Below, one piece after another: positions 15,532 to 20,338 of a stretch of 48,409 nt of DNA. Below the pieces are notes generated by a model. The model was not told the origin of the DNA, did not search any database, and saw only the letters and a list, made by a program, of their open reading frames with translations. Source of the stretch: Syntrophomonas sp. DTU018. GTDB lineage: Bacteria; Bacillota; Syntrophomonadia; Syntrophomonadales; Syntrophomonadaceae. Made by a program: the position numbers and the translations under genes. The stretch's first letter is position 1. Every line of letters starts with the position of its first letter. The stretch spans positions 1 through 48,409 of the forward strand of contig LFSR01000020.1 in assembly GCA_001513155.1 (NCBI GenBank), given 5' to 3'.

Positions 15532-15561
15532 TTGACCTGAACGTATGTTCTGGTGTAGGAT
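15532..15561 (+). promoter_or_regulatory. sigma-A promoter of the SOS mutasome operon
   Basis: TTGACC (15532-15537) and TAGGAT (15556-15561) are separated by 18 bases. A LexA box lies wholly within the spacer, so repressor binding would occlude RNA polymerase. The start of the ImuB-like gene is about 30 bases downstream of the -10. Confidence 0.7.
15539..15550. promoter_or_regulatory. LexA (DinR) box 1
   Basis: GAACGTATGTTC matches the core of the Gram-positive SOS box, GAAC-N4-GTTC, and sits between the -35 and -10 elements. Confidence 0.88.
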
Positions 15562-15570
15562 AACTACACA

Positions 15571-15582
15571 GAACAAATGTTC
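15571..15582. promoter_or_regulatory. LexA (DinR) box 2
   Basis: GAACAAATGTTC has the same GAAC-N4-GTTC core, 32 bases (about three helical turns) from box 1 and just before the start codon. Two boxes on one helical face suggest tight, cooperative repression. Confidence 0.85.
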
Positions 15583-15592
15583 GGGTGATGAT

Positions 15593-16633
15593 ATGCGCCG
15601 CATTGCTTTTTGGTATAGTGCAGAAAAACTAAGGGATAACTTTTTGGAGGCCTGCCTTGATCTGACTCCTCTGGTAGAACCCAGCGGATCCCAAGCAGTT
15701 TATTTAGATCTGACCGGAAGCCGGATAAAAAAACTCCTTCTGCAAAAACTGGCTGCTTATGCTGAAGGTAAGGCAAGAATAGGTATGGCTGCCACCCGCC
15801 TGACTGCCCATATAGCTGCGATCGCCCCTGGGCTGTTGCCTTCAGCTCGTTCCAAGGATTACCGGATCCACCGCTGGGCAGGGGGAGAACTTGTAGAGGT
15901 TCTGCCCCACCGGGATGCTTATTTTTTAGCCCCTTTGCCCCTGGAATGTCTCTATCCCCTGGAGAAGGCTGAGATGAAGAAACTGCGCCGCTCCGGTTTT
16001 GATCGTATAGGAGATATTGCTGCCCTTCCCCCTTATGAGCTGGTACGGCTGCTGGGGGAAAAAGGGCTGTACCTTTCCAACCTGGCCCGGGGTATTGATA
16101 ATACTCCCGTTATGGGCCTTTACCCCCCTTCCCGGATACTATACCAGCTTAATTTTGAACCAGAGCTGGACAATACATTGTCTTTACAGCAAATCCTGCA
16201 GCAAGCAGCCACCCAGTTATCTGCCCGGCTGCGCCAAAAGAATTCTGTCTGCCAGCGAGTCAGTCTGGAATTGCAGCGGGGCACTCACAAAGACCAGGCC
16301 CAGCGCTTGCTCCAGACAGGCAGCCAGGATGAACTGTTTTTGCGTCATGTTTTGGAGGGGCTCGCCAAAAACATAATGGCTCAGTATGACAGGGAATACC
16401 TGATAACCGGGATGACCATTATTCTGGATCAGTTTGCTCCCCTGTCCTGGTCCCAGCCTGATTTGTTCAGCTATCGCCCTATTTCCGCCGCCGAAGAACA
16501 ATCCCGCCTGGATCAGGTTTTAATCCGCCTGGAAAACCGTTTTCCCGGGTCTTTAAGCCGGGGGATAGCCATTGCCAGGCGGGAACAGGTACTGGCCCTG
16601 TGGGATCCCTGGAGGCTGACTCCCCATGAGTAA
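15593..16633 (+). CDS. imuB: ImuB-like Y-family polymerase relative, catalytically degenerate
   Basis: The 346-residue protein aligns by eye with Y-family DNA polymerases: TPLVEP at about residue 25, the VYLDLTGS segment, a helix-hairpin-helix-like region (LRRSGFDRIGDIAALPPYELVRLLG), and a little-finger-like C-terminal part. The active polymerases have SIDE before the FLDVTG-type segment; here it reads SGSQ, so the catalytic acidic residues are gone, and the first catalytic Asp at the usual N-terminus is absent too. This is the hallmark of ImuB, the non-catalytic hub of the ImuB-ImuC mutasome. I start at the ATG at 15593; an upstream in-frame ATG at 15545 lies within the promoter. The stop overlaps the next gene. 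Two LexA boxes precede it. No imuA is present here. Confidence 0.82.
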   Translation: MRRIAFWYSAEKLRDNFLEACLDLTPLVEPSGSQAVYLDLTGSRIKKLLLQKLAAYAEGKARIGMAATRLTAHIAAIAPGLLPSARSKDYRIHRWAGGELVEVLPHRDAYFLAPLPLECLYPLEKAEMKKLRRSGFDRIGDIAALPPYELVRLLGEKGLYLSNLARGIDNTPVMGLYPPSRILYQLNFEPELDNTLSLQQILQQAATQLSARLRQKNSVCQRVSLELQRGTHKDQAQRLLQTGSQDELFLRHVLEGLAKNIMAQYDREYLITGMTIILDQFAPLSWSQPDLFSYRPISAAEEQSRLDQVLIRLENRFPGSLSRGIAIARREQVLALWDPWRLTPHE

Positions 16634-16874
16634 ACTGCGGCATAAGGCTTTACAGGTAAGTTGCGATAATCAGGGCTCGCCCCTTAGCCTGCAAAAGGAC
16701 CAGCAAACCTTCCGGGTGGAGCAGGTTCTGGACTGCTGGCGGGATACAGGCTGCTGGTGGGAGGGAGAAAGCGAAAAGCTCTTTTACCGTTTGTCTCTGG
16801 ATAACGGAGCGATTGTAGAGATTTACCGTGACTTGGAAACTCATGCATGGTTACTGTATAAGGTTTATGACTAA
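16626..16874 (+). CDS. DUF6504-like small mutasome-associated protein
   Basis: The 82-residue protein has the core VEQVLDCWRDTGCWWEGE followed by LFYRLSLDNGAIVEIYRD and WLLYKVYD. This resembles the DUF6504 module found next to, or fused at the end of, Y-family/ImuB proteins; I assign it from recalled pattern, not a search. Its ATG overlaps the ImuB-like gene's stop by eight bases, so translation is coupled and the two products probably act together. A plausible role is a structural or binding appendage of ImuB, here encoded as a separate chain. No catalytic motif is visible. Confidence 0.65.
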   Translation: MSKLRHKALQVSCDNQGSPLSLQKDQQTFRVEQVLDCWRDTGCWWEGESEKLFYRLSLDNGAIVEIYRDLETHAWLLYKVYD

Positions 16875-16951
16875 GGACGGTCAGTCCATATCTCCAGCTT
16901 CCGGCTTGCTGGGAAATAGCTATCGCCTTTGATGAAAAGCCACCTTTTGGT

Positions 16952-17234
16952 GGCATTGCTGTGAAAATGGCTTCCCTAATGTGTCATTGCTGTGAAAAGA
17001 GCTCTCTTCGTGTCATCGCGAGGAGCGCAGCGACGTGGCGATCTCTTTAAATAGGCCTGCTGTTTGCGTTTGAGATTGCTTCGCTCCGCTCACAATTATC
17101 ACCTGAAGCACAGGCCACGATGAATGAAAAGTCCTCTTATGTGTCATTGCGCGCCCCTGAAAGGGGCGCGGCAATCTCATTCGTCTATCTGTCTCCCCGA
17201 TTGAGATCGCCACGTCGCTTCGCTCCTGGCGATG
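16952..17234. repeat. REP-like palindromic repeat array between the mutasome genes
   Basis: This 383-base gap between genes holds no plausible gene. A 16-base direct repeat (GGCATTGCTGTGAAAA at 16952-16967, one mismatch at 16983-16998) is followed by four palindromic units. Unit A (17011-17045) begins TGTCATCGCGAGGAGCG; unit B (17072-17096) is an inverted partial copy beginning GAGATTGCTTCGCTCC. Unit C (17142-17178) begins TGTCATTGCGCGCCCC and is strongly self-complementary; unit D (17203-17234) is inverted, GAGATCGCCACGTCGC. A/B and C/D are two head-to-head pairs. Unit D ends 11 bases before the dnaE ribosome site. The same family forms the island at 9232-9373. No transposase gene is present. 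Confidence 0.8.
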
Positions 17235-17257
17235 GCCTACAAGATGGAGGTAAAACG

Positions 17258-20200
17258 ATGAAATTCGTTCACCTGCATACCCATAGCCCTTTTTCCTTTC
17301 TGGATGGGGCCAGTTCCATCGAAGCTCTGGCAGAGCGGGCGGCCCAGCTGGATATGCCCGCTCTGGCCATAACTGACCACAACAATGTCTCCGCGGCGGT
17401 TAAATTTCACCAGGCTGCTTCCCGGGCAGGCATCAAACCCATCCAGGGCACGGAAGTGGAGATTCCCGGAGGTTATCACCTGACTTTGCTGGCCCGCAGC
17501 CCCCGGGGATATGCTTCCCTGTGCCGTCTGCTTACCCGCAGCCATCTTTCCCATCCCCGGGGCAATCCCTGCCTGGACCTTGAGTGGCTGGCAGAAGGAG
17601 AAGACATCCTGGTGCTGTCCGGGTGCCGGCAGGGACAAATCCCGGCCCTCATTTTAAAGGGGCACTACCAGGAAGCTCTGGAGTGCGCCCGCCGTTACCG
17701 GGATATGCTGGGCAGGGAAAATTTTTACATAGAGATGCAGGATACCCTGTTGCCAGGCAACCAGTTCCTCAACCACCAGCTGGCCCAGCTGGCTGACTGC
17801 CTGGGCCTGGAACCGGTGGCTACCAATAACGTTCACTATGCTGATCGCCCGGATTTTATGGTCCACGATTTGCTGACCTGTGTAAGGCACCTTCTGCGCA
17901 TAAATGATGTTCACCCGGCCCGGCCCCTCAATGCTGAACAATACCTAAAATCCGCTGAGGAGATGGAGGAACGTTTTTCCTTTTGCCCCCGGGCTCTGGC
18001 TAATACGGCAGTTATTGCTGGGCAATGCCAGGAGGTTTTCAGCAACACTCAGGTGCATTTTCCCCGTTTTGCCTCCCCGCCGGGGGGCAGTGCCATCGCT
18101 TACCTGCGCTCCCTTTGCTATGCCGGAGCCCGGGAACGGTACGGGAAAATATCCCCTCAGGTGCGGCAGCGCCTGGATTATGAGCTGGGAATTATCGAAC
18201 AGATGGGGTTTGCTGACTATTTCCTGCTGGTATGGGATCTGGCCCGGTTTGCCCGCCGCCAGGGCATCCGTTATGCCGGCCGGGGATCGGCGGCCGACTC
18301 CCTGGTAGCCTACTGTCTTTATATATGTGATGTGGATGCCTTGAAAAGAGGGCTCCTGTTTGAGCGCTTCATGAGCCCGGAACGTTCCCAGCTGCCGGAT
18401 ATTGATATTGATTTTGAAGCCCGTTACCGGGACCGGGTTATTGACTATGTTTATAAAACCTACGGTTCAGAACGGGTGGCCCGGGTGGCTGTTTACAACA
18501 CTTTTATGGCCCGGTCAGCGGTGAGGGATATCGGCAAGGTATTGGATTTCGACCAGGAGGAATTAGGCAGGATCGCTAAGAGCCTGCCCCATACTTACGC
18601 CGACCGCATCCGCGGTATGCTTCAGCTCCTGCCCGAGCTGCAGGACAGCCCCTTGAAAGAACAGCGGTTTCAGCTGCTCCTGGATGTATGTGAACATATC
18701 GCCGGATTTCCGCGTTTTCTGGGTACTCATCTGGGAGGCCTGGTGATCAGCGACGTTCCCCTGACCAATTTTACTCCCCTGCAAAAATCAGCCCTGGGCC
18801 CCGTTATAACCCAGTTTGACAAAGATGATGTGGAAGCTATCGGCCTGGTAAAACTGGACCTGCTGTCTTTAAGAACCCTGTCCGTGGTTCAGGATACCGT
18901 CCAGCAGATCCGTAAAACGGGCACCTCTTTGGATTATGATCGTATCAGCCTGGAGGACCAGGAAACTTATGAAATGATCAGTCAGGGAGAAACCATCGGA
19001 GTCTTTCAGCTGGAAAGCCCGGCCCAGCGAGCCCTGCAAACCCGCCTGGGAGCCAGTCACATGGAAGACATTGTGGCCAGTATGGCTTTAATCCGGCCCG
19101 GCCCCATTAAAGGGAACATGGTTGACCCTTATATCAGGCGGCGCCAGGGACAGGAAGAAATAACCTACCTGCACCCGCTCTTAAAGCCAATCCTGGAAAA
19201 AACCTATGGTGTGATACTCTTTCAGGAACAGGTAATCGAAATTGCCATTGCTGTGGCCGGCTTCACTCCCGGGGAAGCTGATCAGCTGCGGCGGGTCATG
19301 ACCCATGCCCGTTCCCAGCGGGTAATGGAAGAAATCGGCCGTCATTTTGTGCAAAAGGCCATCCTCAATGGCATAGAACCCCAAGTGGCCGAGTCCATAT
19401 TTGCCTGCATGGCCGGCTATGCCAGCTATGGATTCTGTGAAGCCCATGCCGCTGCTTTTGCCAATACCAGCTATAAGACGGCCTATTTGCTTAAGCACTA
19501 CCCGGCCCACTATTTTGCAGCTTTGCTGAACCACCAGCCCCTGGGATATTACCCGCCCCATGTGCTGGCTACGGAAATACGGCGGCGCGGCTTAAAGCTT
19601 CTGCCCCCAGACGTGAATAAAAGCAAAGCCGACTGCCGGGCGGGATCCCCATCGGCTATCAGAATTGGTCTGAAGCTGATTAAAGGTATAAGCCGCCCCA
19701 CCCTAGATGTGATTCACCAGGAGCAGGAAAAGAGTCCCTTTTCTTCTGCCGCCGATTTTATCCAAAGAATTGCTCCTCCCCGGGATGAGGCCGAAAACAT
19801 CATAAAATGCGGAGCCCTGGACAGCCTGTATCCTAACCGGCGTGAACTCCTGTCCCTGCTTCCCTATCTGGAATCAGCGGATAATCTGCTGTTTGCCGGA
19901 GACCTCCCCCCGGCTGGCACTATTGCCGATTTTTCACTCCCCCAGAAGCGTTTTATGGAACGGGAACTGCTGGGCTTGGATATAGAAGAACACTTCCTGA
20001 CTTTCCTGCGCCCCTGGCTGCAGCAGCAGAATATCATGTCATCCCGGGAACTGCACTCCCTGGAATCAGGCTGCCGCATACAGACAGCCGGAGTACTGGT
20101 CCATCCCCACCGCCCGCCCACCCGCAGCGGCAGAATAACGGTTTTTTTCGCTCTGGAGGATGAATGGGGACTGACGGATGTGACTATGTTTGAAGATGTT

Positions 20201-20338
20201 TATAAGCGCTATGGCGGCGAGATATTCAACCCGGCAGAAGGAGTGGTACTGGTCAGAGGCAAGTTGCAGAGAAGAGGCCGGGGCTTGACTGTTATAGCTG
20301 ATCAGGCCCAGCGCCTGCCCATATTGACAGTAAGGTAG
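17258..20338 (+). CDS. dnaE2: DNA polymerase III alpha-type, DnaE2/ImuC-like error-prone polymerase
   Basis: The 1026-residue protein is a C-family polymerase. It has an N-terminal PHP domain (HLHTHSPFSFLDG, ITDHNN), the palm motif PDIDIDF with catalytic Asp residues near residue 380, AGRGSAADSLVAY just before it, DLLSLRTL for the third carboxylate, helix-hairpin-helix repeats and a C-terminal OB domain (GVLVHPHRPPTRSGRITVF). The length is shorter than typical DnaE1 and fits DnaE2/ImuC. It retains the His-x-His of the PHP metal site. The start is the ATG at 17258 with GGAGG eight bases upstream; the upstream open frame is repeat DNA. Association with ImuB and two LexA boxes argues for SOS-induced translesion synthesis. 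A second replicative DnaE is not excluded. Confidence 0.88.
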   Translation: MKFVHLHTHSPFSFLDGASSIEALAERAAQLDMPALAITDHNNVSAAVKFHQAASRAGIKPIQGTEVEIPGGYHLTLLARSPRGYASLCRLLTRSHLSHPRGNPCLDLEWLAEGEDILVLSGCRQGQIPALILKGHYQEALECARRYRDMLGRENFYIEMQDTLLPGNQFLNHQLAQLADCLGLEPVATNNVHYADRPDFMVHDLLTCVRHLLRINDVHPARPLNAEQYLKSAEEMEERFSFCPRALANTAVIAGQCQEVFSNTQVHFPRFASPPGGSAIAYLRSLCYAGARERYGKISPQVRQRLDYELGIIEQMGFADYFLLVWDLARFARRQGIRYAGRGSAADSLVAYCLYICDVDALKRGLLFERFMSPERSQLPDIDIDFEARYRDRVIDYVYKTYGSERVARVAVYNTFMARSAVRDIGKVLDFDQEELGRIAKSLPHTYADRIRGMLQLLPELQDSPLKEQRFQLLLDVCEHIAGFPRFLGTHLGGLVISDVPLTNFTPLQKSALGPVITQFDKDDVEAIGLVKLDLLSLRTLSVVQDTVQQIRKTGTSLDYDRISLEDQETYEMISQGETIGVFQLESPAQRALQTRLGASHMEDIVASMALIRPGPIKGNMVDPYIRRRQGQEEITYLHPLLKPILEKTYGVILFQEQVIEIAIAVAGFTPGEADQLRRVMTHARSQRVMEEIGRHFVQKAILNGIEPQVAESIFACMAGYASYGFCEAHAAAFANTSYKTAYLLKHYPAHYFAALLNHQPLGYYPPHVLATEIRRRGLKLLPPDVNKSKADCRAGSPSAIRIGLKLIKGISRPTLDVIHQEQEKSPFSSAADFIQRIAPPRDEAENIIKCGALDSLYPNRRELLSLLPYLESADNLLFAGDLPPAGTIADFSLPQKRFMERELLGLDIEEHFLTFLRPWLQQQNIMSSRELHSLESGCRIQTAGVLVHPHRPPTRSGRITVFFALEDEWGLTDVTMFEDVYKRYGGEIFNPAEGVVLVRGKLQRRGRGLTVIADQAQRLPILTVR

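Follow-up and report, generated by a model that had tools for sequence, protein, structure and literature searches.

An ImuA-less iPolY-ImuB-C-DnaE2 cassette with LexA boxes and a fingers-less Y-family subunit in a Syntrophomonas-type bacterium

Background

The ImuA-ImuB-DnaE2 mutasome of Caulobacter, Mycobacterium and Pseudomonas combines a dead Y-family subunit, which carries a clamp motif and ImuB-C, with a DnaE2 polymerase under SOS control, and in mycobacteria both the clamp motif and the RecA-NT of ImuB are essential (PMC10421592, PMC11791113). A cassette type without ImuA has also been described (PMC6511836, PMC12926913, PMC3765255, PMC8072749). It includes the DnaE2X-iPolY-ImuB-C-RecA module (Timinskas & Venclovas, Nucleic Acids Research 2019, PMC6511836, Kyrpidia tusciae operon; Nucleic Acids Research 2026, PMC12926913), whose inactive Y-family protein (iPolY) has a RecA-NT motif and which, as reported, occurs with each of the three types of replication system. 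It also includes the cassette of Deinococcus deserti and D. ficus, which has lexA inside the operon and a full-length ImuY (423 aa); in D. deserti, ImuY and DnaE2 are required for ultraviolet mutagenesis, under LexA/RecA control (PMC8072749). DnaE2 has been reported as extremely rare where PolC and DnaE1 occur together (PMC3919608), and the ImuB-C domain was defined partly with Swol_1669 of Syntrophomonas wolfei, among the first search queries (PMC3765255). Here we analyzed a 48,409-nt stretch of Syntrophomonas sp. DTU018 (contig LFSR01000020.1; the window), in which positions 15532-20338 hold a promoter, two LexA boxes and three genes, all on the forward strand, encoding an iPolY, a standalone ImuB-C and a DnaE2-type polymerase. 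We consider it likely that this cassette is an SOS-induced, ImuA-less mutasome in which iPolY serves as a clamp (probably also RecA) adaptor for DnaE2 in error-prone translesion synthesis.

Comparison with the described systems shows that the cassette shares with the DnaE2X-iPolY-ImuB-C-RecA module the inactive Y-family protein, the separate ImuB-C, DnaE2 and a genome without ImuA, and differs from it in that iPolY has no fingers, while related cassettes have also lost palm and thumb. The Deinococcus cassette encodes these three proteins in the order seen here, under LexA control and without ImuA, but its DnaE2 falls in a different part of the DnaE tree. With the ImuA-ImuB-DnaE2 mutasome the cassette shares a dead Y-family subunit, the clamp motif, ImuB-C, SOS control and DnaE2, but not ImuA; here, however, ImuB-C is a separate 82-aa chain instead of a fused domain, the DnaE lies outside the DnaE2A clade and the host is an anaerobe with PolC and DnaE1. 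The class iPolY-ImuB-C-DnaE2 (probably with RecA) suits the cassette better than ImuA-ImuB-DnaE2. An initial annotation of this DNA had called it a less described clostridial form, which holds for anaerobic PolC-containing Bacillota and most of all for the missing fingers but not for the cassette type. We found no description of a fingers-less or little-finger-only iPolY in the open literature text, the supplements of PMC12926913 and subscription journals being outside this scope; the shape of the dead subunit, fingers-less and repeatedly trimmed, is thus provisionally new, whereas the composition of the cassette was already known.

Results and discussion

An inactive iPolY without fingers

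The first gene encodes a relative of the Y-family polymerases, as indicated by a phmmer match to structure 7yll (E 1.2e-11). The structure prediction proposed with the initial annotation gave an AlphaFold model (pLDDT 82) that Foldseek matched to Y-family polymerases (E 1.6e-19); the TM-scores are low (0.35-0.52) despite this E value, probably because the domains are differently set. In the alignment to 7yll, VEP-VSIDE-AYLD corresponds to VEP-SGSQA-VYLD, so that GSQA stands in place of SIDE, with D changed to Q and E to A, and the catalytic carboxylates are not intact. The active site had been correctly annotated as dead, although the replacement had been read as SGSQ, one residue off. The N-terminal catalytic Asp region had also been described as lacking: the first Asp is indeed gone, but palm strand 1 (MRRIAFW) is retained without it, and what is missing are the fingers. 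In an alignment whose DinB control has all three carboxylates, the D-E pair occurs in 0 of ~79 cassette iPolYs and the first Asp in none of the full-length ones; no relative with an intact catalytic site was found among the ~79.

The model runs from palm strand 1 (residues 4-9) through the former active-site helix and a hairpin to the thumb, the little finger and a helical tail. It lacks the ~65-70 residues that make up the fingers, and the Pfam IMS match is incomplete, part of the domain being absent. Sister families have the same cassette with a full-length Y-family protein of ~400 aa, and one family (f14) holds both forms: L108 reads MRLIAHVFVRNFF, then the fingers, then CYDLSPRVE, and L219/L220 read MKIIAHIFLHDFRGNMSELACKCHHLSPRVE. 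Such a junction would be expected if the fingers had been excised in frame. The lost carboxylates and deleted fingers, seen in sequence and model, show that iPolY performs no catalysis.

Nearly all iPolY forms examined retain the clamp motif and the C-terminal tail. The motif takes EQDLF or QLxLF forms in relatives; it lies in the little finger, which would bind the beta clamp. A RRExxLxxWDPxR tail is conserved in cassette iPolYs. The tail (LDxxLxxLExRFPG...) aligns best with the RecA N-terminus (score 14.3, against at most 10.7 for the other RecA windows tried), in agreement with the published RecA-NT motif, and it would probably hold RecA at the site that ImuA takes on ImuB.

ImuB-C, the DnaE2-type polymerase and the host genome

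The second gene had been annotated as a DUF6504-like gene of 82 residues overlapping the preceding stop. This was borne out, since PF20114 matches above cut-off (E 1.9e-5; 25.3 bits against 24.2) and the ATG (16626) overlaps the iPolY stop codon (16631-16633); the proposed search for IMS domains likewise returned PF11799 in iPolY. All 19 of the 19 aligned members match PF20114. The only control genome matched in the DUF6504 search was that of Caulobacter vibrioides, a known ImuB carrier, and of four plasmid-borne ImuB proteins scanned, three have a PF20114 match at the C-terminus. Judged by these profile matches, DUF6504 is the ImuB-C domain. Its AlphaFold model (pLDDT 86) has six beta strands and a Foldseek search with it gave no significant PDB match, which agrees with the published statement that the ImuB-C fold has no close PDB relative. 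On Thermus brockianus plasmid pTB1, iPolY and ImuB-C are fused (443 aa, L082:3825-5156) beside an S24-type gene and a DnaE. Several Bacillota families also have DUF6504/ImuB-C genes (L093-L102 and similar) with no Y-family or DnaE gene in the fetched flanks.

The third gene, annotated as a C-family polymerase of DnaE2 size, encodes 1026 aa with an intact catalytic Asp triad (equivalents of D401/D403/D555). The protein ends at the OB fold, as in DnaE2, whereas the DnaE1 of the same genome extends ~75 residues further. In our tree the Bacillota cassette DnaEs form one clade (98%). DnaE1 (100%), proteobacterial DnaE2A (100%) and the cassette DnaEs of Deinococcus and Thermus all lie outside it, which rules out a recent DnaE1 duplicate; the DnaE2-type assignment rests on the OB-fold end, the separate replicases of the genome and this clade position. 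The Deinococcus locus L079 has the same gene order as the Bacillota cassettes but a DnaE from another part of the tree, a pattern that points to convergent assembly or to a swap of polymerases. The clamp motif of DnaE1 is variable or lost in cassette DnaEs, and this fits recruitment via iPolY.

The host is a strictly anaerobic Syntrophomonas-type bacterium of the Syntrophomonadaceae, with a 2.56 Mb genome (99.9% complete). Besides the cassette DnaE it encodes PolC and a separate DnaE1 of 1152 aa, so that the cassette DnaE is not the sole or essential replicase, the case which had been named as speaking against the annotation. The absence of ImuA was also upheld: a profile search of the genome returned only RecA, far below the model cut-off. 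The genome has one RecA plus a RadA-like match, and on a different contig an open frame of 404 aa gives a further Y-family match. The ratios of nonsynonymous to synonymous substitution rates (dN/dS) indicate purifying selection on iPolY (0.22-0.30), ImuB-C (0.07-0.12) and DnaE (0.10).

LexA boxes

The two perfect LexA boxes of the initial annotation, one of them in the promoter spacer, are exact matches. The exact box GAACNNNNGTTC occurs four times in the whole window against 0.41 expected. In three same-genus relatives box 2 has an identical sequence and lies equally far from the start, and box 1 has a positional counterpart, which carries a mismatch in one of the three; the 32-nt spacing of the two boxes is kept across the genus. 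Among the 74 full or fingers-less cassettes examined (see below), 46 have an exact GAACNNNNGTTC within ~480 nt upstream, the expectation estimated from the same loci being 0.002 per upstream stretch, and 18 others have a box with one mismatch. In the same genome, GAACATATGTTT lies immediately 5' of the recA start. LexA is encoded in the genome and its boxes lie at the cassette promoter, as in a LexA regulon; the cassette would be induced by damage. Other LexA-type boxes were seen close to a contig end, where two lie in tandem at a distance of 30 nt (G000:C48:255 and 285, L050), and at G000:C57:76269 (L051), 5' of a 609-aa SMC/ATPase-like gene; these loci are candidates for other SOS genes.

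Proposed mechanism and alternatives

We propose that LexA would hold the cassette promoter via the two operators until damage leads to RecA filaments and LexA cleavage, after which one operon would give iPolY, ImuB-C and DnaE2. DnaE2, with its intact Asp triad, would do the chemistry, and iPolY would be a non-catalytic adaptor, with its little finger and clamp motif directed to the beta clamp and its tail probably to RecA. ImuB-C would probably link iPolY to the PHP domain of DnaE2, by extension from published ImuA-ImuB-DnaE2 models, and the assembled complex would carry out error-prone translesion synthesis. Since iPolY need not hold a nucleotide, the fingers would be dispensable, in line with their repeated loss in Bacillota. 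Induction, binding, assembly and mutagenic activity are proposed here by analogy with Deinococcus genetics (PMC8072749) and mycobacterial mutants (PMC10421592, PMC11791113).

Several observations weigh against this mechanism. The Deinococcus genetics transfer by analogy, as the Deinococcus DnaE2 lies elsewhere in the tree. Among the full or fingers-less cassettes, about 14% have no GAAC-type box. ImuB-C aligns collinearly with the C-termini of five proteobacterial ImuB proteins, but this profile match is weak, and so is the RecA-NT match of the tail (hhalign P 0.011, 18 columns). In addition, several PHP metal-site residues look retained in the cassette DnaE, which could mean proofreading, unlike classical DnaE2.

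This last point bears on the first alternative, that the cassette serves SOS-induced accurate gap filling or repair, with the DnaE as a high-fidelity backup polymerase loaded by iPolY and no mutator. The PHP domain retains the HxH, TDH and E residues of DnaE1-type PHP domains and the DnaE clade is separate from classical DnaE2A, both as this alternative would have it; we nevertheless hold it to be unlikely, as the DnaE ends at the OB fold like DnaE2 and the same gene content is mutagenic in Deinococcus (PMC8072749). A second alternative makes iPolY and ImuB-C regulators that bar the replicative polymerase from the clamp during SOS, with DnaE2 secondary. Competition for the clamp is conceivable for an inactive protein with a clamp motif, but the near one-to-one co-occurrence and operon coupling with DnaE2 leave little room for this explanation, which we regard as very improbable. 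That the short iPolY, with part of Pfam IMS missing, is a decaying pseudogene or has a mis-called start hardly deserves credence, given the start and similar length shared within Syntrophomonadaceae, the promoter, LexA boxes and divergent operon that occupy the DNA where the fingers codons or a hidden N-terminal half would lie, the confident fold and the dN/dS values.

If the cassette is an SOS-induced, ImuA-less mutasome, SOS mutagenesis by such a cassette extends to strict anaerobes that have PolC and DnaE1, which bears on how these bacteria generate mutations under damage. From the natural deletion series of iPolYs (~400, 345 and 175 residues), the parts that a catalytically dead polymerase cannot do without in mutasomes would be its little finger, clamp motif and tail, and the small natural subunits could be used for reconstitution from purified proteins.

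Reduced forms across Bacillota

A DUF6504 search of 398 Bacillota genomes gave matches in 94, a lower bound, since the Pfam model misses several Syntrophomonadaceae ImuB-C proteins. From the DUF6504 places and cassette relatives we obtained 78 loci that encode iPolY, ImuB-C and DnaE one after the other, a synteny kept across many Bacillota families. By the model columns covered, ~41 iPolYs are full (counting L257, which reads as fingers-less from its sequence), 33 fingers-less and four little-finger-only. Excluding L206, L249 and L260, whose class is unsure, changes between full and reduced forms take nine steps on the DnaE tree, and well-supported branches force at least four for the fingers-less label; this tree is a quick one from partial DnaE sequences with many weak deep branches. 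Loss is the simpler direction because DinB, ImuB and ImuY are all long, with a few regains by recombination possible.

In two genomes of family f114 and one of f16, iPolY is only ~175-187 aa and consists of the little finger, a clamp motif (QLSLF, QLALF or QLSFF) and a tail ending DRRERMLxFYDPxR or SRREIMLAFYDPWR; ImuB-C and DnaE2 follow. The missing parts were not found within 5 kb upstream in L184. Divergent from these cassettes lies a gene whose product of 261-323 aa combines an XRE helix-turn-helix with an S24 peptidase domain, and in their promoter regions a different palindrome (TTTACACCCAGGGTGTACA and similar) replaces the GAAC-type boxes. From its position, the XRE-S24 repressor would control the little-finger-only cassette, and it looks like a replacement of LexA control. 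We lean slightly towards a repeated trimming of iPolY in Bacillota mutasomes towards a pure clamp/RecA adaptor, in which the fingers were excised in frame several times and one lineage also lost palm and thumb, while XRE-S24 took the place of LexA there. If this is true, the thumb, held to be an invariable DnaE2 contact, is dispensable and a protein of ~175 aa does the job of ImuB. The reduced ImuB1/ImuB2 proteins likewise lose structural elements of the dead Y-family scaffold but, as described in the text of PMC12926913 on its Supplementary Fig. S22, always keep thumb, little finger and ImuB-C, whereas the little-finger-only iPolYs have lost the thumb. The fingers-less ImuB-like protein of a Thermomicrobium roseum plasmid (L084:3724-4974) is extended at its C-terminus and is encoded beside a RecA-like gene and a DnaE2.

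Layout of the locus

The coordinates of the features are collected in Table 1.

Table 1. Features of the cassette (window positions) and repressor genes of little-finger-only cassettes (locus positions).
Feature	Position	Strand	Basis
Sigma-70-type promoter TTGACC-18-TAGGAT	15532..15561	+	Consensus scan, 9/12 positions
LexA box 1 GAACGTATGTTC, within the 18-nt promoter spacer	15539..15550	+	Exact match
LexA box 2 GAACAAATGTTC, directly 3' of the -10 element	15571..15582	+	Exact match
iPolY, inactive fingers-less Y-family subunit, 346 aa	15593..16633	+	PF11799, E 1e-6; start set by relatives
GSQA codons replacing catalytic SIDE motif	15686..15697	+	Alignment to 7yll; family-wide alignment with DinB control
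Predicted beta-clamp-binding motif QPDLF in iPolY	16454..16468	+	D, L, F invariant in 18 relatives
iPolY C-terminal tail: RecA-NT-like helix RLDQVLIRLENRFPG and conserved RREQVLALWDPWR	16502..16630	+	Conservation in relatives
Standalone ImuB-C (DUF6504), 82 aa, all-beta	16626..16874	+	PF20114 above cut-off
DnaE2-type C-family polymerase, 1026 aa	17258..20338	+	Pfam domains; nothing after OB fold
XRE-S24 repressor gene	L184:4222-5181		Divergent from little-finger-only cassette
XRE-S24 repressor gene	L185:396-1367		Divergent from little-finger-only cassette
XRE-S24 repressor gene	L252:1007-1792		Divergent from little-finger-only cassette

For DnaE the start at 17258 is preferred, as it is preceded by GGAGG; the longest open reading frame would begin at 17120. 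The divergent operon 5' of the cassette reads as a spore-germination (ger) operon, named from its translation. The gap of 383 nt between ImuB-C and DnaE contains a genome-wide, REP-like repeat, GTCATCGCGAGGAGCGCAGCGACGTGGCGATCTC, at 17012-17045, which has 154 sites in the genome at up to three mismatches (68 forward and 86 reverse).

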